Assembly: GCA_039196715.1 (NCBI GenBank)
Contig: JBCCUP010000004.1
Coordinates: forward strand, 1 to 64,000
Source of the DNA: Pseudomonadota bacterium
Lineage (GTDB): Bacteria > Pseudomonadota > Gammaproteobacteria > CALCKW01
Direction of reading: 5' to 3'
Length of the DNA: 64,000 bases
Below, one piece after another: positions 7,685-35,062 of the stretch. Made by a program: the position numbers and the translations under genes. Below the pieces are notes generated by a model that saw nothing but the letters and a program-made list of their open reading frames with translations, did not search any database and was not told the origin of the DNA. Positions within the stretch are counted from its first letter, which is position 1. Every line of letters begins with the position of its first letter.

Positions 7685-8325
7685 ATGTCGAGTGCGCGCA
7701 ACGAGCGCGCCAGTCGCCGGCAATTGGACCGCGCCCAGCGGCCGCCCGCTTTGCCCAAACGGCACCGATCGAAGTCGATCAGGTGCCAGCCAGCGCCGCT
7801 CCACATCAGGTTGAAGGCGTTGAGGTCTACGTGGTCCACACCCGCGATGTGAAAACGCGCAACCGTTGCACCGAGCGCACCCCAATCGACAGCGGGTTCG
7901 CCGGCGGCAAGCGCCTCGGCGAGGCTGATCGCCGCCGGGAGTCGTTGCGTCACCAAGGCGGCTTCGTAGAACACCCCGGCGCGGCGCAGGCCAGCGAACA
8001 ACGGACGGGGCACCGGCAGCCCCCGGTCGAACAGCGCCTGCGTGAGTTGCCACTCACGCCAGGGCCGCGATCGGGTCAGGCCGGTGTAGACGTAGTGGCG
8101 CTCGCTGAGGCGGGCCGGCAATCCGCCGCGTCTGTAGCGGCGGACCACCGCAGGCACACCGTCGATGTCGACAAACCAGGCCGCACCACGACCGCCCGAC
8201 ACCGGGGTGCGTTGCGTGCTGCCATCGAGCCAGCTCGCGTCGGGGGTACCAGACCAGGCCGGGTCGGACCACAGCGTCCAGGGCGGGTCTTCGCGGACGG
8301 AAACGGCAGAACGGGGCGTGGTGAT
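7621..8325 (-). CDS. kdkA: 3-deoxy-D-manno-octulosonic acid kinase (5' end uncertain)
   Basis: A kinase that phosphorylates lipid A-linked Kdo at the 4-OH, as in Haemophilus, Bordetella and Vibrio relatives with a single Kdo. Family features seen are GRGAAWFVDIDG (nucleotide loop), RRYRRGGLPARL, the catalytic HVDLNAFNLM and the metal-binding LIDFDRCRLG. The family normally starts about 35 residues before GRG..WF. In this frame no ATG, GTG or TTG exists there: the only normal starts are GTGs at 8532 and 8523, which give an implausible Cys/Arg-rich leader. The listed 5' end is an ATC that gives 234 residues; a frameshift joining ATG 8339 is an alternative. The coding body is secure, the start is not. 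Confidence 0.8.
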   Translation of the reverse strand: MTTPRSAVSVREDPPWTLWSDPAWSGTPDASWLDGSTQRTPVSGGRGAAWFVDIDGVPAVVRRYRRGGLPARLSERHYVYTGLTRSRPWREWQLTQALFDRGLPVPRPLFAGLRRAGVFYEAALVTQRLPAAISLAEALAAGEPAVDWGALGATVARFHIAGVDHVDLNAFNLMWSGAGWHLIDFDRCRLGKAGGRWARSNCRRLARSLRALDIYDDAGWVAFDAAYSAAMPSR

Positions 8326-8628
8326 GGTGTGACACCCATCGGTTGACCGGGCTCGAGTGTACCAGCGGAGACAGCGACCCGTCGGGACGCGGGCGCACGC
8401 GCTCGAGCCCGGCCCAACAACGGTGTCGAGCTGGACTGCAACCCCGGCGCCACCGCAGCACAGACTGCAGTCGAGTCGCAGCCGATGGGGTGCGACACGC
8501 CGTCCCTGCCGGTGCCGAGGCACACCAAACACGCCGTCGATCCCACACCGAAGGTCAACTGAAAATCCGCTGGCGGGCCAGCAGGTCCACTGCTAGTCTT
8601 GCCGCACTTCAACGCGCTGGTCACCGCC
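8326..8628. other. intergenic region between divergent kdkA and MFS gene
   Basis: About 300 bp with no gene I can support. It includes the unlikely upstream extension of the kdkA frame (to 8532) and an ATG at 8339 in a different minus-strand frame. Promoters for both flanking genes should lie here, but none is clear by eye. Confidence 0.35.
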
Positions 8629-9897
8629 ATGGCCACTTTCCTGCGTAACACCTGGCCGCTGCTCCTCGGCATGCTGCTGATCATGCTGGGTAACGGGTTG
8701 CAGGGCACGCTGCTCGGCGTGCGTGGCGCGCTCGAAGACATGGACCCGAGCACGCTCGGCTATGTCATGTCCGGGTACTTCATCGGTTTCCTCGGCGGCT
8801 CACAGATCACCCCGCTGCTGCTGAGGCGGGTCGGCCATGTGCGCGTGTTTGCCGCCCTCGGCTCGCTCGTGTCGGCCGCGTTCATCCTCTACGCGGCCTG
8901 GGTGCACCCGATCGGCTGGATGGTGCTGCGCATCGTGGTGGGGTTTTGCATGTCCGGCGTTTACGTGGTCGCCGAGAGTTGGCTGAACGACGCCGCAGAC
9001 AACCAGACGCGCGGCAAGGCGCTCTCGCTCTACCTGATCGTGCAGATGGCCGGGATCGTACTTGGCCAGGTGCTGCTGAACATCGCTGACCCTGGCGGGT
9101 ACGCGCTGTTTGTGCTGATTTCGGTGCTCGTCTCCTTGTCATTCGCGCCGATCCTGCTGACAGCCACCGCGACCCCCGTGTTCGAGACCTCGCGACCGAT
9201 GACCCTGATCGAATTGTTCAAGGCCTCCCCGCTCGGTTGCTTCGGGATGTTTGCGCTCGGCGGTGTGTTCGCAGCGTTGTTCGGCATGAGCGCGGTCTAC
9301 GCGACGGAGCGCGGCTTCACCCTGGCCGAGGTGTCGAGTTTCATCACCGCAATCTATGTCGGCGGCATGGTCCTGCAGTACCCGATCGGCTGGCTCTCCG
9401 ACCGTCTGGACAGGCGCCTGCTGATCATTGCGGTCACCGCCACGTGCACCGTAGCGTGCGTCGCGGTCTACTACATCGAAAACACCTTCACGAGCCTGCT
9501 CATCATCGCCTTCGTGCTCGGCGGCACGTCCAATCCGCTGTACTCGCTGCTGATCGCCTACACCAACGACTTCCTCGACAATGACCAGATGGCGGCCGCC
9601 AGCGGCGGCATGATCTTCATCAACGGTGTGGGCGCGATGGCGAGCCCGGTGATTGTCGGGGCCATCATGGCGCAGGTCGGGCCCAACGGGTTTTTCGGTT
9701 TCGTCGGCGTGCTCATGATGAGTATCAGTGTCTATGGCCTCTACCGCATGACACAGCGCGCCACAGCGGACGAGCAGGGCCCGTTTGTCACCGTGCCCTC
9801 GCGCATGTCGCCGGTCGCGGTCGAGATCGCAACGGAGATTGCAATCGAGGAAGCCGAGGCCGCCAGTGACGAGGACGACACGGCCGCGCGCGCGTGA
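8629..9897 (+). CDS. MFS transporter, YcaD-like
   Basis: The product has 422 residues from ATG 8629; a TTG at 8599 would add ten. Twelve hydrophobic segments are visible. The first helices read WPLLLGMLLIMLGNGLQGTLLG and GYVMSGYFIGFLGGSQITPLLLRRVGHVRVF, the typical opening of the YcaD-like branch of the major facilitator superfamily, with the conserved GWLSDRLDRR loop between helices 8 and 9. The C-terminus ends in an acidic Glu/Asp-rich cytoplasmic tail. The substrate is unknown for this branch. It is convergent with the MttB-family gene and has no obvious pathway link to it. Confidence 0.85.
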   Translation: MATFLRNTWPLLLGMLLIMLGNGLQGTLLGVRGALEDMDPSTLGYVMSGYFIGFLGGSQITPLLLRRVGHVRVFAALGSLVSAAFILYAAWVHPIGWMVLRIVVGFCMSGVYVVAESWLNDAADNQTRGKALSLYLIVQMAGIVLGQVLLNIADPGGYALFVLISVLVSLSFAPILLTATATPVFETSRPMTLIELFKASPLGCFGMFALGGVFAALFGMSAVYATERGFTLAEVSSFITAIYVGGMVLQYPIGWLSDRLDRRLLIIAVTATCTVACVAVYYIENTFTSLLIIAFVLGGTSNPLYSLLIAYTNDFLDNDQMAAASGGMIFINGVGAMASPVIVGAIMAQVGPNGFFGFVGVLMMSISVYGLYRMTQRATADEQGPFVTVPSRMSPVAVEIATEIAIEEAEAASDEDDTAARA

Positions 9898-9950
9898 TTG
9901 ACAACCCTGGCTGACGCGCGCGCGCGGTGCGGCCGCAGCCAACGCGACGA

Positions 9951-11510
9951 CTACGGGACAAACACCTCGAGCAGCGGTTCGTCGGTACCCAGGCATTCCT
10001 TGCGCGTGGCGACGTAGTGTTCCAACGCCTCCTTTCGGGCGGGATCGAGCGGTGGCGCCTCGTAGGCCTTCAGCGCGGCCTGCCAGAGTTCGGTGGCGCG
10101 TTGGGTGGCGTCTTTGGCGCCGGCGAGCTGCCAGTTTTCCTGGTTTTGCCAATCGCTGAGCATCGGCTCGTAGAAGGCCCCCTTGTACCGCTCGAGTGTG
10201 TGGGTGGTGCCGAAGAAGTGGCCGCCCGGGCCCACCTCCGCCATCGCCTCGAGGCCGATCTCATCCCGGTTGATGGCGATGGGCTGCAGCATGGCGCGCA
10301 TGTGTTGCAGCATCTCGACGTCGATGATGAGTTTTTCAAAGGACGCGACAAGGCCGCCTTCGAGCCAGCCCGCCGAGTGGTAGATCAGGTTGCCGTGCCC
10401 CATGACCGCACCCCAGAGCGCCATCTGGGTCTCGTAGACCGATTGCGCGTCGGCGGTATTGCTCGCGTTGCACGCGCTGGTGCGGTGCGGCAGGTTGTAA
10501 CGCCGTGCGAGCTGGCCACCGGCAATATTGGCAAGGCTGTTCTCAGGCGTACCGAAGGCCGGCGCGCCGGAGCGCATGTCCACGTTGGACGTGAAGCCGC
10601 CGTACACCACCGGTGCTCCGGGTCTGACGAGCTGCGTCAGCGCCATGCCGAGCAAGGCCTCGGCGTTCTGTTGCACCAGCGCACCCGCCATGGTCGCTGG
10701 GGTCATGGCGCCCATGAGCGTGAACGGCGTGACCACCGTCACCTGCCCCAATGACGCCATCTGCATCAGGCCGTAGGCCATGGCGTCGTCGAGCTTGCGT
10801 GGCGAGTTGACGTTGATGTTGGTCATGACCGATGGGCTGTCGCCGAGCTCATCCAGTGTCAGGCCGCGCGCGATCGCGGCCATCTCGACCGAATCCCGCG
10901 CTCGCCCTGCACCGATGCCCGTCGCCAGAAAGGCCTTGTCGGCCAGCGTCAGGTTGCACAAGGTGGTGTCGAGGTGACGGCTGTTGGCCGGCAGGTCGGT
11001 CGGCGCAATCGCCTGGTTGCCAAAGAAGGTGATGACGTCGAAAAACTGACCGAGTTTGATGAGTGACTGGTAGTCGGCAAAGTTGCCGGCGCGGCGGCCG
11101 TTGACACAGTCGTGCACATTGGGTGGGCCGGACACCAGGCCGAAGTGCACCGCATCCCCACCGACGTCGATGTTGTTCTCCGGGTTGCGTGCATGGACAG
11201 TGAACGCCGACGGCGCGGTTGACATCAGCTGCATGACCAAAGCGCGGTCGATCCGCACGATGCCGTCCTCGACAGTGCATCCGGCCTCGCGGTACAAGCG
11301 CAGTGGCTCGTCCCCGAGGACTTCGATGCCCTGCTCTTCCAGCAGGTCGAGTGAGGCTTCGTGGATCAGCTCAAGCTGTTCCTCGTCGAGCGCTTCGATC
11401 GGTGCAAAACGGTTGCGCACCGTGCTGTAGGCGAGCTGCGGCAAGCGCGACGGGGTGACCAGCGTGTCGTTGCGGCGGCGGTTCCGCTTGCGGCGTTGGG
11501 TGGTGGTCAT
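9951..11510 (-). CDS. MttB-family (trimethylamine/betaine) methyltransferase, non-pyrrolysine
   Basis: The product has 519 residues from ATG 11510. It belongs to the MttB superfamily, whose members transfer methyl groups from quaternary or tertiary amines to a corrinoid protein. Recognisable stretches are FGLVSGPPNVHDCVNGRR, YGGFTSNVDMRSGAPAFGTPE and VGPGGHFFGTTHTLERY. The frame is continuous without an internal amber codon, so it is the non-Pyl type, among which a glycine-betaine methyltransferase is known (MtgB). Substrate here is undetermined. No corrinoid protein (MtgC/MttC) lies nearby. It is divergent from a GlxA/AraC-type regulator across 144 bp, the usual arrangement for a substrate-induced catabolic gene. 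Confidence 0.85.
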   Translation of the reverse strand: MTTTQRRKRNRRRNDTLVTPSRLPQLAYSTVRNRFAPIEALDEEQLELIHEASLDLLEEQGIEVLGDEPLRLYREAGCTVEDGIVRIDRALVMQLMSTAPSAFTVHARNPENNIDVGGDAVHFGLVSGPPNVHDCVNGRRAGNFADYQSLIKLGQFFDVITFFGNQAIAPTDLPANSRHLDTTLCNLTLADKAFLATGIGAGRARDSVEMAAIARGLTLDELGDSPSVMTNINVNSPRKLDDAMAYGLMQMASLGQVTVVTPFTLMGAMTPATMAGALVQQNAEALLGMALTQLVRPGAPVVYGGFTSNVDMRSGAPAFGTPENSLANIAGGQLARRYNLPHRTSACNASNTADAQSVYETQMALWGAVMGHGNLIYHSAGWLEGGLVASFEKLIIDVEMLQHMRAMLQPIAINRDEIGLEAMAEVGPGGHFFGTTHTLERYKGAFYEPMLSDWQNQENWQLAGAKDATQRATELWQAALKAYEAPPLDPARKEALEHYVATRKECLGTDEPLLEVFVP

Positions 11511-11654
11511 GCGGGGTCCTTGTGGGCGTACCGGCGCGAGCGGCATTCAATCGTGCAGTGTCCTGCGGTATTGTTCCGGATAGATATCAGCTTTGGGGCG
11601 TTTTTTGTTAGTTTCGGGCAGCGAGTACAGCCTACTCGGCCCGGGTGCGCCGTC
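11511..11654. promoter_or_regulatory. divergent control region, MttB-family gene / GlxA-type regulator
   Basis: A 144-bp intergenic region between divergent genes. It contains an AT-rich patch (about 11565-11615, including GATAGATATC and a T6 run) that stands out in this GC-rich genome and probably holds both promoters and the regulator's binding site. I could not define -35/-10 boxes or a clean inverted repeat. Confidence 0.4.
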
Positions 11655-12602
11655 GTGACGACAGCCCGGCACATCACCTTTGCGTTGGTCACGCGGTTCC
11701 CGCTGTTCGGGCTCGCGTGCGCGGTCGAAGTGCTGCGCCACGCCAACCGCTTTGCCGAGCGCGAGCTCTACACCTGGGACCTGGTCAGCGACACCGGCGG
11801 GAGCGTCTGCGACAGCAACGGCCTCGCCTTGGAGACCCGTGCGGTGGCGCGAGCGCGCACGCGCACCGATGCGGTTTTCGTGGTGGCGGGCTACGAACTG
11901 GACGGCGATGCCCTGCCGCAGCTCACCGCGTGGCTTCGTGCCGAGGGCAAGCGGGACATCCCGGTTGGCGGGATATCCAACGGCTCGTTCCTGCTCGCCC
12001 ACGCTGGGCTGCTCGAGGGTCGGCCGGCGACGGTGCACTTCGAAGACTTCAGCGCTTTCCACCAGCGGTTTCCAACCGTGCGCGCCCGCTACCAACGCAC
12101 GGTCATCGACGGAAACCGCATGAGTTGCTCGGGCGGCACGAGTACGCTCGACCTGTTGATCGAATGGCTGCGGCGCGAACACGCGCCCCGCATTGCCAGT
12201 CTGGTGTCACAGCAGATGCTGTTGCAGGCCTTGAACCTGCCACCCGGCGACGACGCGCCCTTGCCGCTCAACAGCGGCCCGCGGTACTCGACCACGGTGC
12301 AGCGTGCGCTCGACCGATTGGAGGCGTCCCACGCCGAGCGCCTGACCGTCGGCGAAATGGCACGCCACGTGGGGCTGAGCCGACGCGAGCTGCTGCGCAT
12401 GTTCAAGCGCGAGACCGGCATGACACCGGGTCAGGCGGTGCGCCAACGGCGCGTGATGCGGGCGCAATCGCTGGTGCGCCATACGCACCTGCCTCTCGCC
12501 GATGTCGCAATCGCCGTGGGCTACGCGAGTCAGTCACACATGACCTCGCACTACCGTCAACACGTCGGCCGCACGCCGGCGCAGGACCGGCGGCAGCACT
12601 GA
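11655..12602 (+). CDS. GlxA-family AraC-type transcriptional regulator (GbdR/CdhR-like)
   Basis: The product has 315 residues if GTG 11655 is the start; no ATG is available in this part of the frame. Residues about 8-170 form a DJ-1/PfpI-like domain (FPLFGLACAVEVLRHAN near the start, then VGGISNGSFLLAHAGLL and MSCSGGTSTLDLLIEWL). This is followed by a C-terminal AraC double helix-turn-helix (LTVGEMARHVGLSRRELLRMFKR, then LADVAIAVGYASQSHMTSHYR). This architecture is that of GbdR, CdhR and ArgR-type regulators, many of which respond to betaine, carnitine or amino acids. Being divergent from an MttB-family gene, it is inferred to control methylamine or betaine use. Confidence 0.85.
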   Translation: MTTARHITFALVTRFPLFGLACAVEVLRHANRFAERELYTWDLVSDTGGSVCDSNGLALETRAVARARTRTDAVFVVAGYELDGDALPQLTAWLRAEGKRDIPVGGISNGSFLLAHAGLLEGRPATVHFEDFSAFHQRFPTVRARYQRTVIDGNRMSCSGGTSTLDLLIEWLRREHAPRIASLVSQQMLLQALNLPPGDDAPLPLNSGPRYSTTVQRALDRLEASHAERLTVGEMARHVGLSRRELLRMFKRETGMTPGQAVRQRRVMRAQSLVRHTHLPLADVAIAVGYASQSHMTSHYRQHVGRTPAQDRRQH

Positions 12603-12615
12603 AGCCGGTTTGTGG

Positions 12616-13674
12616 TCAGGCAATCGCCTCGGCAATCGCCTCGCCGAGCTCGGTCGTCGTTGCACGGCCTCCCATGTCCGGCGTCATCGCGGTGCCAGCG
12701 GCCAACACCCGCTCGATCGCTTGCAACATGGCGTCGTGGGCGTCGCGGTGACCGAGGTGGTCGAGCATCATCGCACCCGACCAGATCATGCCGACGGGGT
12801 TGGCAATGCCCTGCCCTGCGATATCGGGAGCCGAGCCGTGCACGGGCTCGAACATCGACGGGTAAGCCCGCGTCGGGTTGAGGTTGGCGCTGGGCGCGAT
12901 CGCGATGGTGCCGGTCACACCCGGCCCGAGGTCCGAGAGGATGTCACCGAACAGGTTTGACGCAACGACGACATCGAAGTGATCCGGGCGGTTGACGAAA
13001 TGCGCACACAGGATGTCGATGTGGAAGGCGTCCGTCTCGAACTCCGGATACTCGCTCGCGATTGCGTCGAACCGCTCGTCCCAGAACGGCATGGTGTGGA
13101 TGATGCCATTGGATTTGGTGGCCGACGTGACACGCTTGGCGTTGTGTGACTGCGCGAGTTCGAAGGCGTAGCGCATGACACGGTCACAGCCACGGCGCGA
13201 GAAGTTCGCCTGCTGGAATGCCACCTCGTGCTCGGTACCGGTGTACATCCGACCACCGACGTTGGAGTATTCCCCCTCGACGTTCTCGCGCACAACGTAG
13301 AAGTCGATGTCGCCAGGCTTGCGGTTCGCCAGCGGGCACGGCAGGCCATCGAACAGCCGCACGGGTCGAAGGTTGACGAACTGGTCGAACTGCCGCCGAA
13401 TCGGAATCAGGAGACCCCAGAGCGACACGTGGTCAGGCACCCCCGGGTAGCCCACCGCACCGAGGTAGATCGCGTCGAAGTCGGCCAGCGTTTCGAGGCC
13501 GTCGGCCGGCATCATCGCACCCTCGCGGTGGTAGCGTTCGCAGTTCCAGTCAAAGTGTTCGTATTGCAGGTCGATGCCGAAGCGCTTCGCCGCCGCATCA
13601 AGCGCCTTGAGACCTTCGGGCATGACCTCCAGGCCAATCCCGTCACCTGCGATCACGGCGATACGGTGTGTCAT
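12616..13674 (-). CDS. tartrate / D-malate dehydrogenase family (TtuC/DmlA-like)
   Basis: The product has 352 residues. It is an NAD-dependent beta-decarboxylating dehydrogenase of the isocitrate/isopropylmalate family. The TtuC/DmlA subgroup is indicated by AGDGIGLEVMPEGLKAL, LGAVGYPGVPDHVSLWGLLIPIRR, VVRENVEGEYSNVGGR, the SNLFGDILSDLGPG metal site and FEPVHGSAPDIAGQGIANP. Known members oxidise tartrate, D-malate or 3-isopropylmalate. Its ATG overlaps the panC stop by 4 bp (ATGA), so it is the last gene of the pantothenate operon. That coupling is odd and has no textbook explanation. Confidence 0.88.
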   Translation of the reverse strand: MTHRIAVIAGDGIGLEVMPEGLKALDAAAKRFGIDLQYEHFDWNCERYHREGAMMPADGLETLADFDAIYLGAVGYPGVPDHVSLWGLLIPIRRQFDQFVNLRPVRLFDGLPCPLANRKPGDIDFYVVRENVEGEYSNVGGRMYTGTEHEVAFQQANFSRRGCDRVMRYAFELAQSHNAKRVTSATKSNGIIHTMPFWDERFDAIASEYPEFETDAFHIDILCAHFVNRPDHFDVVVASNLFGDILSDLGPGVTGTIAIAPSANLNPTRAYPSMFEPVHGSAPDIAGQGIANPVGMIWSGAMMLDHLGHRDAHDAMLQAIERVLAAGTAMTPDMGGRATTTELGEAIAEAIA

Positions 13675-14549
13675 GGTGGGTCACCTGGGTTTTGTGCGGC
13701 GGATACCCGCAGGTTGTCGATGAGGCGCGCTTTGCCAAGTTGAGCGGCAACCAGGATCACCCAGTCGAGCGGTCGCTCGTCGGCGTGGGGCGACTCGAGG
13801 TCGAGGGTGCTGCGCACGGTGAAGTAGTCGGGTTTGAATCCGGCGTCGGCCAGGGCGCGCGTGTGCCTGCGCTCCAGGCCCGAAACATCGCTCTCGCCGG
13901 AGAGCAAGGCACGCGCACAGGCGTGCATTTCACGGTAGAGCTGCGCTGCCAGCCCGCGCTCGGCGTCGGTGAGGTAGCCGTTGCGCGAGCTCAGCGCCAG
14001 GCCGTGGGCGTCGCGCGCCGTGGGCGCACCGACCACGTCGACCGGCAGGTTGAGGTCCGCCGCCATGCGCTTGACCACGAGCAGCTGTTGGAAATCCTTC
14101 TCTCCGAACACCGCGACGTCGGGCTGAACCAGGTTGAACAGTTTGCAGACCACCGTGGCCACGCCGACGAAGTGGCCACGCCGGTGGGCCCCCTCGAGGA
14201 TGTCGGTGATGCCCGGCACGTCGACGGTGGTCGCGTGGGCCATGCCGCGCGGGTAGATCATCGCGTCGTCCGGCACGAACACCGCGTCGGCGCCGAGCGA
14301 CTGCAGGCTGTCGAGGTCCTCCTCGAGCGTGCGCGGGTAGCGGTCGAGGTCGCCCGCCCGATCGAATTGCAGCGGGTTGACGTAGATGCTGCAGAGCGTG
14401 CGGTCGCAGCGCGAGCGCGCGAGGTCGAGCAGCGATAGGTGGCCGTCGTGCAAGTTGCCCATGGTCGGCACGAAACCGACCGTCTGCCCCTCCGCACGCC
14501 ACGCGTGGCGCAGCGCGCGCAGGTCATCGATGGACGTCAAAACGTGCAT
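13671..14549 (-). CDS. panC: pantothenate synthetase
   Basis: The product has 292 residues. It condenses pantoate with beta-alanine using ATP, the last step of pantothenate synthesis. The HIGH-like nucleotide motifs are clear: FVPTMGNLHDGHLSLL (residues 26-41) and the KMSKS-like LSSRNGYL. Binding segments SIYVNPLQF and FGEKDFQQLLVV are also present. It follows panB by 6 bp and overlaps the dehydrogenase downstream. No panD (aspartate decarboxylase) is present in the window. Confidence 0.97.
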   Translation of the reverse strand: MHVLTSIDDLRALRHAWRAEGQTVGFVPTMGNLHDGHLSLLDLARSRCDRTLCSIYVNPLQFDRAGDLDRYPRTLEEDLDSLQSLGADAVFVPDDAMIYPRGMAHATTVDVPGITDILEGAHRRGHFVGVATVVCKLFNLVQPDVAVFGEKDFQQLLVVKRMAADLNLPVDVVGAPTARDAHGLALSSRNGYLTDAERGLAAQLYREMHACARALLSGESDVSGLERRHTRALADAGFKPDYFTVRSTLDLESPHADERPLDWVILVAAQLGKARLIDNLRVSAAQNPGDPP

Positions 14550-31418: not shown

Positions 31419-32798
31419 TCAGCCAATCAATCGGAGAATGTCGTTGTAGAACGCGAGGCCCATCAGGCCCGCCAGCAACGCAAGGCCGATCTGTTGCCCG
31501 AGCAGCTGCATGCGATCCGACAAGGGCGAGCCCTTGACCGCCTCAATCGCAAAGAACAGCAGGTGTCCGCCATCGAGCACCGGCACGGGCAGGAGGTTCA
31601 GCACCGCCAGCGACACGCTGATCAGCGCGATGAATTTGAGGTAGTGATCCACCCCCACGCGGGCCGACTCGCCGGCGAACTGGGCGATGGTGAGCGGGCC
31701 ACTGACGTTCTCCAGCGCCGCCTGCCCGGTCACGAGCTTGGCGATCATCTGAACCGTCAGGGATGTCATGTGCCAGGTCTGGGCAACGGCCTTGGTCACC
31801 GCGTCGACCGGCCCGTAGCGGTCGACGCTTTGCAAGGCAGCCACCTCCTCGCGGTAAGCATCGGTCGTCAGCGCCGAGGCGCCGATGAAACCGTAACGCC
31901 CCTCGCCTTCACCCCGACTGCCCGGGATCAGGGTGGTGTCAAAGGTGTCCTGGCCCCGCAACACCGCCACCTGCAAGGGTTCGCCGGGGCTGCTGCGCAC
32001 CACGTTGACCCAGTCGCCCCAGTCGCCGATGGCCTGACCGTCCACGCGAACGATGCGGTCACCGGAGCGCAACCCGGCCCGCTCGGCTGCCTCACCGGGA
32101 CTGACCACATCGATCACGGCGTCGAGCGCAGGCAACCACGCGCGCAACCCGGCGTCAGAGACGATGTCGCTGCCCGACTCCAGGGCGCCGCGGGCGTCCA
32201 CGTCGAGCGCGTGCGAGCGCTCGCCCCCGGAGGGCAACTGCACGCGCAGCGGAACCGGTTCCGTGGGGTTGGCCAGCGCGCTGTCGAGCATCGCCAGGCG
32301 CACGCTCTCCCAACTGGCCGTGTCACGCTCACCGACAGCCACGATCTGGCTGCCGGCCATGAGGCCTGCCCGGTCGGCAGCTGACCCGGGAACCGGGGTG
32401 TCCATGCGCGGCGCGAGCCCGGAGATGCCGATGACGAACATCAGCCAATACGCGACAATCGCAAGCAGAAAATTGGCGAGCGGCCCGGCGGCCACAATCG
32501 CGATGCGGGTCCAGACCGACTGCCGGTTGAAGGCCCGTTCGGCGTCCCGCGGATCGACATCACCCTCACGCTCGTCCAGCATCTTGACGTAGCCACCGAG
32601 CGGGATCATCGCGATCACGTACTCGGTGCCGTCGGCGCCGACGCGTCGCCACAACGGCCGACCGAAGCCCACGGCAAAGCGCAGCACCTTCACACCGAGG
32701 GTGCGGGCGGTCCAGAAGTGCCCGTATTCGTGGATGGCCACCAGTATGCCGAGCGCCACAATGAAGGACAGGGCATACCAAAGCGTACTGGAAATCAT
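31419..32798 (-). CDS. rseP: site-2 intramembrane zinc protease RseP
   Basis: The product has 459 residues. It cleaves anti-sigma factor RseA/MucA and remnant signal peptides in the inner membrane. The zinc motif HEYGH is at residues 23-27 in the first helix. Two PDZ domains lie in the middle (around GSAADRAGLMAGSQIVAVGER and GEAAERAGLRSGDRIVRVDGQ). The third zinc ligand motif is in LNLLPVPVLDGGHLLFF. Its ATG overlaps the stop of the truncated dxr gene (ATGA). Confidence 0.96.
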   Translation of the reverse strand: MISSTLWYALSFIVALGILVAIHEYGHFWTARTLGVKVLRFAVGFGRPLWRRVGADGTEYVIAMIPLGGYVKMLDEREGDVDPRDAERAFNRQSVWTRIAIVAAGPLANFLLAIVAYWLMFVIGISGLAPRMDTPVPGSAADRAGLMAGSQIVAVGERDTASWESVRLAMLDSALANPTEPVPLRVQLPSGGERSHALDVDARGALESGSDIVSDAGLRAWLPALDAVIDVVSPGEAAERAGLRSGDRIVRVDGQAIGDWGDWVNVVRSSPGEPLQVAVLRGQDTFDTTLIPGSRGEGEGRYGFIGASALTTDAYREEVAALQSVDRYGPVDAVTKAVAQTWHMTSLTVQMIAKLVTGQAALENVSGPLTIAQFAGESARVGVDHYLKFIALISVSLAVLNLLPVPVLDGGHLLFFAIEAVKGSPLSDRMQLLGQQIGLALLAGLMGLAFYNDILRLIG

Positions 32799-33493
32799 GT
32801 TGCTTCCACTGTCGGGTGCGCGATGTGCGCGGCTGCGAATTCACGCGCCTGGCGGTAGGCGTCCAACACCGTGTCGATACACCTCGCCGCCTTGACCTCA
32901 CTGCGCTGCAAGGTGTGATCCACCACCTCGCTGATGGTTCGAAAGCCGATCTCACGCGCGAGATCCGCGCTGACAGCCATGTCGTTGGCCACGTTCAACA
33001 CGGCAGTCGCGGTCCCGCCGGTGCGCATGGCCTCGCGGGCCAACCGCAGGGCGGGAGAGGCCGTGCTGTCCGGCTGTTCGAAGCGCAATTGCGCCAGCGC
33101 TTCCTTGTGCACCAGCAGTATCCGCGTGCCGGCGCGTGCCGGTGAAAGCGTCGGTCCGAGGCCGGCCGCTCCGGTGATGGCGGACAGCACGGTGTCGGCG
33201 TCACCAAACACGGCGACCACGTTGACGCCCGCATTCCCCGAGAGCACCTCGACGCCGGAAACCTCGCCCGCCAACGCCGTCTCCGGAGCACGGGCCGCCG
33301 ACGGGTCCGCCATCGAGACGACCCACCGGCCAAGACGCAGCCAGAGCGCCCGCATCGCCTCGACACTGTGACCACCGGCCAGCCCGCGAACGCGGAAACG
33401 CGACGGGTGACGGGCGACCACATCGAACGCGCTGGCGCCGATCACCCCGGTTGCGCCGAGCACACCGATGCCGAGCGGCAGGCCTGCCGTCAT
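32795..33493 (-). CDS. truncated Dxr homologue lacking the catalytic domain
   Basis: The product has only 232 residues; DXP reductoisomerases have about 390-400. Residues 1-134 match the NADPH-binding domain (LGATGVIG at 12-19, SMADPSAA, VEVLSGNAG, GAAGLGPTLSPARAGTRILLVHKEAL). Residues 136-232 match the C-terminal domain (PALRLAREAMRTGGTATAVLN, AARCIDTVLDA). The roughly 150 residues between, with the DSEH and SVDSATMMNKG motifs, metal ligands and substrate loop, are absent. It therefore should not catalyse the MEP-pathway step. Both ends overlap neighbours by 4 bp and the frame is clean, so it is probably expressed, either repurposed or relic. A full-length dxr or DXR-II (DRL) enzyme would be needed elsewhere. 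Confidence 0.85.
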   Translation of the reverse strand: MTAGLPLGIGVLGATGVIGASAFDVVARHPSRFRVRGLAGGHSVEAMRALWLRLGRWVVSMADPSAARAPETALAGEVSGVEVLSGNAGVNVVAVFGDADTVLSAITGAAGLGPTLSPARAGTRILLVHKEALAQLRFEQPDSTASPALRLAREAMRTGGTATAVLNVANDMAVSADLAREIGFRTISEVVDHTLQRSEVKAARCIDTVLDAYRQAREFAAAHIAHPTVEAT

Positions 33494-34293
33494 CGCAACA
33501 CCGCAGGTGCCAGCGCGACGAAGGCCGGCACCGCAGCGAGCAAACTGTCGACGCGGTCGAGGACGCCACCGTGCCCCGGCAGGATCCGGCCACTGTCCTT
33601 GACCTGAGCTGCGCGTTTGAGCGTGCTTTCAAACAAGTCGCCGGCGACCGACAACACCGCGGCCACCACCGACGCGGCAATCCAGCTGCCCGGCGACGCG
33701 GAGGCCGCATCGAACACCGCGAGCGACAGCAACGCGAGCAGCAGCGCGCACACGAGTCCGCCGACAAAACCCTCGATCGATTTGCCCGGACTGACGTTCG
33801 GCGCGAGTTTGCGGTGACCGAAGCGCTTGCCGACGAAATACGCACCGATGTCTGCCGACCAGGCAATCGCCAGTACGTACAACAGCAACCACGGACCGAC
33901 TGCGTGCAGGGCCACCAGCAACGCGCTGACCGTGGGCAACAACACGACTGCCAGGAGCCCGCGCCACGGTTGCGGCGTCAACACCGCAGCCGTGCGATCG
34001 ATCCGGAACAACCAGACCACCAAGGCCACCCAGACGGCCAGCACGATGCCGGAAAGCAGCCTCAGTGCTGCACTGTCCAGGGCGAACACGGCCACGCCAC
34101 TGAGCGCGGTCAGCGCCAGGGCGGCAGACCAGCGCAGTGCACCGTTCAAGCCCTGCAGCGCCGACCACTCGTAGGCCGCTGCCAACGCGACCAACAGAAT
34201 CAACGCAGAAAAGTAGACGCTGGACCAGAAGAAATCGGCCCACGCCAGCACGACCACCAGTACCAACGCGGTGATAACCCGTTGTTTAAGCAC
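33490..34293 (-). CDS. cdsA: phosphatidate cytidylyltransferase
   Basis: The product has 267 residues from GTG 34293; further upstream extension is unlikely. An integral membrane enzyme making CDP-diacylglycerol. About eight hydrophobic segments and the CdsA signature KRAAQVKDSGRILPGHGG followed by VLDRVDS are present; AWSADIGAYFVGKRFGHRK is another family hallmark. The start lies inside the last codons of uppS (8-bp overlap), and the stop overlaps the truncated dxr. Confidence 0.95.
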   Translation of the reverse strand: MLKQRVITALVLVVVLAWADFFWSSVYFSALILLVALAAAYEWSALQGLNGALRWSAALALTALSGVAVFALDSAALRLLSGIVLAVWVALVVWLFRIDRTAAVLTPQPWRGLLAVVLLPTVSALLVALHAVGPWLLLYVLAIAWSADIGAYFVGKRFGHRKLAPNVSPGKSIEGFVGGLVCALLLALLSLAVFDAASASPGSWIAASVVAAVLSVAGDLFESTLKRAAQVKDSGRILPGHGGVLDRVDSLLAAVPAFVALAPAVLR

Positions 34294-35062
34294 GTTGACT
34301 GGCCTGGACCTGCTCGCCCGTCTGCCCGAAACGCCGTTGCACGTCGTTGAAGTGCGCAACCGCGGTGTGAAAGGCGGCAGCATCGAAATCGGGCCACATC
34401 ACATCGGTGAAATACAGCTCGGTGTAGGCGAGTTGCCAGATCAGGAAGTTGGAAATGCGGATTTCACCGCCCGTGCGGATGAAAAGGTCGGGCTCGGGGA
34501 CGTCGGCGAGGCTCAGCGCACCGCGCACTCGCGCCTCGTCGATGTCATCAGGTGCCAGCTCACCGCGTGCAACCTGCTCGGCCAGGCTTCGCGTGGCCTG
34601 GGTGAGGTCCCACCGGCCGCCGTAGTTCACAGCGATGTGCAAGTTCAGCTTCTGCCCGCCCTCGGTGTCGCGCACGGCCTGGTGCATAGCGTCTTGCAGC
34701 TGCGGTGAAAACCGCGACAGGTCGCCGATGAAGTGCAACCTGACACCGTACTTGATCAGGTCGCGCACCTCGTTCTTGAGCGCGCGCAGAAACAACGTCA
34801 TCAGCACGTTGACTTCCTCAGCCGGGCGCGACCAGTTCTCGCTGCTGAACGCAAAGAGTGTCAAATTGGGGATGCCGTTGCGCACACAGAATTCAACTGC
34901 GGCACGCGCCGCTCGCGCGCCGCGCCGGTGACCGTAGGTGCGCGGTTTGCCCCGCCGCTCAGCCCACCGCCCGTTGCCGTCCATGACAATCGCCACGTGC
35001 GCCGGCATGCGCAGCGACGCGAGCGGCGCCGGGGTTCGATTGTCAGTCGCCAGGGCGTTCAT
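34286..35062 (-). CDS. uppS: undecaprenyl diphosphate synthase
   Basis: The product has 258 residues. A cis-prenyltransferase making the C55 lipid carrier from FPP and IPP. The catalytic Asp is in VAIVMDGNGRWAERRG; FAFSSENWSRP, NYGGRWDLTQA and the DLFIRTGGEIRISNFLIWQLAY segment are diagnostic. It needs isoprenoid precursors, so the organism must make IPP despite the truncated dxr two genes downstream. It starts 33 bp after frr. Confidence 0.97.
   Translation of the reverse strand: MNALATDNRTPAPLASLRMPAHVAIVMDGNGRWAERRGKPRTYGHRRGARAARAAVEFCVRNGIPNLTLFAFSSENWSRPAEEVNVLMTLFLRALKNEVRDLIKYGVRLHFIGDLSRFSPQLQDAMHQAVRDTEGGQKLNLHIAVNYGGRWDLTQATRSLAEQVARGELAPDDIDEARVRGALSLADVPEPDLFIRTGGEIRISNFLIWQLAYTELYFTDVMWPDFDAAAFHTAVAHFNDVQRRFGQTGEQVQASQRA

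Follow-up and report, generated by a model that had tools for sequence, protein, structure and literature searches.

DXR-I oxidoreductases (Dxr or IspC, TIGR00243) are the closest described relatives of the gene discussed here, sharing its locus and both of its flanking domains, and they are represented in the same genus by full-length orthologues. Mevalonate operons are also known in bacteria such as Streptomyces, where they occur alongside the MEP pathway. The use of isoprenoid pathways varies within genera, for instance in Brachybacterium, and transfer of mevalonate operons has been described (PMC13001223). Among the DXR-II/DLO oxidoreductases, Thr229, His250 and Arg320 (Brucella numbering) are diagnostic of DXR-II, and tested members of the DLO families failed to complement (PMC3847144).

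Here we describe a 232-codon ORF at the dxr locus of a gammaproteobacterium, which is very probably a dxr pseudogene, a fossil left after a swap from the MEP to the mevalonate pathway within one genus. The present genome (G000; GCA_039196715.1) is a 169-contig draft, 96% complete, and the window is the first 64,000 nucleotides of its contig JBCCUP010000004.1. The comparison set comprised 56 related genomes, including three congeners, G001, G002 and G003.

A dxr remnant without its catalytic domain

The ORF lies between two intact genes and overlaps both of them:

31419..32798, minus strand: rseP, intact, 75-78% identical to its counterparts in G003 and G001
32795..32798, minus strand: ATGA, 4-bp overlap of the dxr-remnant stop and the rseP start
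32795..33493, minus strand: dxr remnant ORF, from the ATG at 33493 to the stop at 32795; 232 aa, with an internal loss of ~168 codons
32840..33103, minus strand: remnant of the C-terminal domain (PF13288), residues 131-218
33087..33098 (about), minus strand: deletion junction, reading GCGCTGGCGCAA
33095..33469, minus strand: remnant of the NADPH-binding domain (PF02670), residues 9-133, with the invariant ANKE changed to VHKE
33490..33493, minus strand: ATGA, 4-bp overlap of the cdsA stop and the dxr-remnant start
33490..34383, minus strand: cdsA, intact ORF; the true start may be internal
34286..35062, minus strand: uppS, intact

A preliminary description of the window had reported a short Dxr homologue of 232 residues in the dxr locus, overlapping cdsA and rseP by 4 bp each; this observation is confirmed, and both overlaps are present. 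Because uppS is intact, isoprenoids are evidently still needed and made. cdsA evolves fast in this genus, with 53% identity to G003 compared with 91% for frr.

In the 232-aa product, Pfam detects PF02670 with 99 bits, and the catalytic domain PF08436, which carries the metal and substrate residues, is absent. The TIGR00243 equivalog model scores 141.4 bits, below its cut-off of 315.7, and full-length Dxr models and solved Dxr structures align to the remnant in two separate pieces only, the models falling far under their cut-offs. The preliminary description was thus right that the whole catalytic domain is missing, and its estimate of about 150 residues falls short of the ~168 codons (504 bp) lost with reference to G001 and G003. 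A second correction concerns the NADPH-binding domain. Placed on the E. coli Dxr sequence, which is consistent with the PDB alignments of solved Dxr structures, and on the domain limits of that enzyme, residues from ~129 onward are gone, so that the end of the Rossmann (NADPH-binding) domain is deleted with the whole catalytic domain and the edges of the deletion do not coincide with a domain boundary.

The corresponding sequence in G001 reads GAAGCGCTT at the left break point and GTCGCGCTC at the right, and the junction in the present genome reads GAAGCGCTGGCG. A short direct repeat, GCGCT (5 bp), occurs at both break points in G001, and an exact match to it is absent from those of G002 and G003. 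With no exact match in G002 and G003, a role of GCGCT in the deletion is a suggestion.

The dxr search matched 43 of the 56 related genomes. G001, G002 and G003 carry uninterrupted full-length dxr ORFs of 413-435 codons at the same locus, and none of the 56 genomes showed another short form that was convincing. This is essentially the pattern, full-length genes in relatives and no short forms, that the preliminary description had set against its own view. It had also predicted a second dxr, and the profile search of the present genome returned no other PF02670 match and no PF08436 match above the cut-off.

The post-Dxs MEP genes are broken in place

In the present genome dxs is complete and intact. 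Its product DXP also feeds the synthesis of thiamine and pyridoxal phosphate, and dxs has presumably been kept for that supply. All five other post-Dxs genes of the pathway, ispD, ispE, ispF, ispG and ispH, are broken at their usual loci between conserved neighbours. On contig C3, ispD is split into three segments; it carries a small frameshift and has lost ~34 codons, which changes the frame. In the adjoining ispF the frame shifts near codon 98. A deletion of ~55 codons in ispE (contig C5, between lolB and prs) has removed the glycine-rich kinase motif and altered the frame, and ispH (contig C43) has lost ~126-133 codons, also with a change of frame, and contains two stops. All that is left of ispG (contig C3; locus L092, about 8411-8587) is a 57-codon ORF in which its first ~35 and last ~20 codons are fused in-frame. 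It is, besides dxr, a second clean mini-ORF left after a large deletion.

In G002 and G003, ispF, ispG and ispH are uninterrupted, and ispD and ispE are of ORF length. Intact ispG and ispH were not found in G001, a draft that is only 79% complete. The earlier expectation that the enzyme is lost and that isoprenoids must come by another route is borne out.

Decay of the remaining dxr sequence

Constraint was measured over residues identical in G002 and G003, by counting those at which the present genome differs. Such residues are altered at 32 of 106 positions in the dxr remnant (30%), at 133 of 498 in the five other relics pooled (27%), and at 282 of 3620 in 15 intact neighbours (8%). Even against five fast-evolving intact neighbours, in which 102 of 643 are altered, the remnant stands apart (p = 9e-4), and it does not differ from the five pseudogenes (p = 0.47). 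For reference, the full-length dxr of G001 has 11 of 105 conserved residues altered and the dxs of the present genome 41 of 445. Because its loss of conserved residues matches that of the relics and exceeds that of intact neighbours, the dxr remnant decays like a pseudogene.

The preliminary description had read the clean frame as an argument against decay. This argument does not hold against residue loss at the pseudogene rate, five broken sibling genes and the expected number of lesions. A count by hand gives four small frame-breaking lesions over the 2589 bp examined in the five sibling relics; at this density ~1.1 are expected in the 699-bp dxr remnant, and the probability of none is ~0.34, so the clean frame is unremarkable and needs no new function. 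Relative to its intact orthologues the remnant carries a disabling change and shows relaxed constraint; a frameshift or premature stop, common in pseudogenes but not obligatory, is absent, and the frame is open.

An apparent mevalonate operon beside polA

Mevalonate genes were among the checks suggested earlier, and the search for them located an apparent mevalonate operon on contig C2 (locus L094, about 8093-14384). Its genes run in one direction and encode an HMGR, a type-2 IPP isomerase, an HMG-CoA synthase, two GHMP kinases and a diphosphomevalonate decarboxylase. Three of the products exceed the cut-offs of their families: HMG-CoA synthase (TIGR01835, 507 bits against 360), type-2 IPP isomerase (TIGR02151, 375 against 281) and diphosphomevalonate decarboxylase (TIGR01240, 237 against 171). 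The HMGR scores 285 bits with PF00368, above the cut-off, and 290 bits with TIGR00533, below the cut-off of 442; by eye, its sequence retains the conserved E, K, D and H motifs and can be classed as a biosynthetic HMGR. Both GHMP kinases best resemble mevalonate kinase at scores under the curated cut-offs, and one of the two would be the phosphomevalonate kinase. Judged by gene content, the six-gene cluster is apparently a complete mevalonate operon. Since the mevalonate route gives only IPP, the presence of a type-2 isomerase fits such a supply.

In a comparison at the family level, the operon is present in this genome alone among the four genomes of the genus. G001-G003 have no orthologue of the operon HMGR, their own HMGR being of the degradative type, and among the GHMP kinase matches in these three congeners there is no cluster of the operon kind. 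The features around and related to the operon are as follows:

L094 7360-7424 and 15282-15346 (G000, contig C2): 65-bp direct repeat of the polA 3' end, 92% identical, flanking the mevalonate operon
L094 15346-16484, L120 2549-3484: gene resembling homocysteine S-methyltransferases, with a GC content of about 0.50-0.55, immediately to the right of the polA repeat
L093 6862-8376 (G000, contig C32): degradative-type HMGR, common to all four genomes of the genus, also those in which the MEP genes are full-length

The operon directly follows polA, and the second copy of the repeat, beyond the operon, includes the polA stop codon. This repeat looks like a possible insertion scar. No tRNA lies near the operon, and the ORFs scanned to its right include no integrase; no donor was found among plasmids, to whose HMG-CoA synthases that of the operon is at most about 50% identical. 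The operon (GC 0.66) does not differ from the genome in base composition, and its contig agrees with the rest of the genome in tetranucleotide composition. Because base composition does not distinguish the operon, a very recent transfer is improbable unless the donor resembled this genome. The lower-GC homocysteine S-methyltransferase-like gene may also be foreign. The HMGR on contig C32 was rejected as a sign of mevalonate synthesis, being of the degradative type and present also in the congeners that have the MEP pathway.

A probable swap from the MEP to the mevalonate pathway

The probable course of events is as follows. In the present lineage a six-gene mevalonate operon would have entered the genome at the polA 3' end, supplying IPP and, through the type-2 isomerase, DMAPP, and the MEP genes after dxs would thereby have become dispensable. 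The dxr gene would then have lost ~504 bp, perhaps by recombination between GCGCT repeats, in-frame by chance, and ispD, ispE, ispF, ispG and ispH would have decayed in place through deletions, frameshifts and stops. The remnant frame has probably stayed open by chance, and coupling of its translation to that of the essential rseP at the overlapping ATGA may have helped. In this account the lesions, the relaxed constraint, the operon, its family-level absence from the three congeners and the polA repeat are observed, and the sequence of steps, the operon's function and the causes for which dxs and the open frame persist are inferred. Counted against reading the ORF as a fossil are its clean frame, the two retained 4-bp overlaps, the draft state of the genome, the kinase scores under their cut-offs, the missing integrase, tRNA and donor, and the lack of intact ispG and ispH in the incomplete G001 draft.

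Alternative explanations

One alternative is that proposed in the preliminary description, a new kind of Dxr protein, regulatory or NADPH-binding, that has left the MEP pathway; selection would now maintain it. Its clean frame and preserved overlaps suit such a protein, as does an AlphaFold2 model in which the two remaining modules are folded (mean pLDDT of 79). However, the same model has a pTM of 0.59 and a pLDDT below 50 across the junction (residues 131-140), the end of the Rossmann domain is cut off, and conserved residues, those of the ANKE motif included, have disappeared as fast as in the pseudogenes. As the 56 relatives hold no convincing second short form and the remaining post-Dxs MEP genes are broken too, a functional protein of this kind is not supported and is very unlikely; the short dxr is most likely a leftover. 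There is a slim chance that its product or its translation was co-opted after the swap, the former as a small protein of two modules, the latter as a leader ORF that only couples cdsA to rseP. It is possible, if on balance doubtful, that the remnant has decayed as a protein while its translation is still selected, with ribosomes passing through it to start rseP, and this is compatible with a fossil origin. The ATGA overlaps at both ends point this way, as does the lack of small frame-breaking lesions in dxr compared with their presence in ispD, ispF and ispH. Nevertheless, with so few lesions expected in a sequence of this length, selection is unnecessary to explain the open frame, and the deletion in ispG is also in-frame without known coupling.

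A pseudogene could also be mimicked by a fault in assembly or binning, which a draft in 169 contigs might invite. This is highly improbable, since the damage strikes six genes of a single pathway and spares their immediate neighbours, the residual dxr sequence is itself decayed, which is not an effect of a mis-join, and the contig compositions agree. Barely credible is a MEP pathway that still runs with DXR-II (DRL) in place of Dxr, as the preliminary description had predicted. Two PF21135 proteins, both similar to the B. abortus DXR-II (3UPL/3UPY), speak for it:

L033 1177-2529 and L034 1177-2460: two DXR-II-like (DLO-like) PF21135 oxidoreductases

At positions 229/250/320, however, hand-read alignments give S/A/K in one and I/Y/V in the other, as in the DLO families (PMC3847144). 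Both match DXR-II at Gly121, and one does at Val351. With most of the checked diagnostic residues absent from both homologues, DXR-II was rejected as the replacement, and on these residues the two appear better called DLO-like. Moreover, each of the three congeners has at least one PF21135 protein despite its full-length dxr, and the steps downstream of Dxr are broken as well.

Comparison with known systems

The dxr fossil differs from DXR-I in the loss of ~168 codons, including the catalytic domain, and in the decay of the conserved residues left over. Because Dxr, the target of fosmidomycin, is lost here, the organism is predicted to be insensitive to fosmidomycin. The putative replacement operon resembles other bacterial mevalonate operons, which likewise cluster genes for HMGR, type-2 isomerase, HMG-CoA synthase, GHMP kinases and the decarboxylase. 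Unlike in those cases, the MEP genes here are relics, and the operon is bordered by polA on one side and by a second copy of its 3' end on the other. As in the within-genus diversity described previously (PMC13001223), one species of a MEP genus would be using mevalonate; here, in contrast to those cases, all six lost genes can still be recognised at their loci, together with what may be an insertion scar. In the open-access literature we found no paper in which the whole set of post-Dxs genes persists as fossils at the original loci, next to a mevalonate operon or a possible insertion scar.

The process itself is known, and the swap that left this short dxr adds a good new case. Replacement of isoprenoid pathways has so far mostly been inferred from the presence or absence of genes, whereas this genome offers six relics in their original loci, a putative replacement operon, a possible scar and full-length controls from the same genus. 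In combination, these make the order and tempo of the swap of an essential pathway directly testable.
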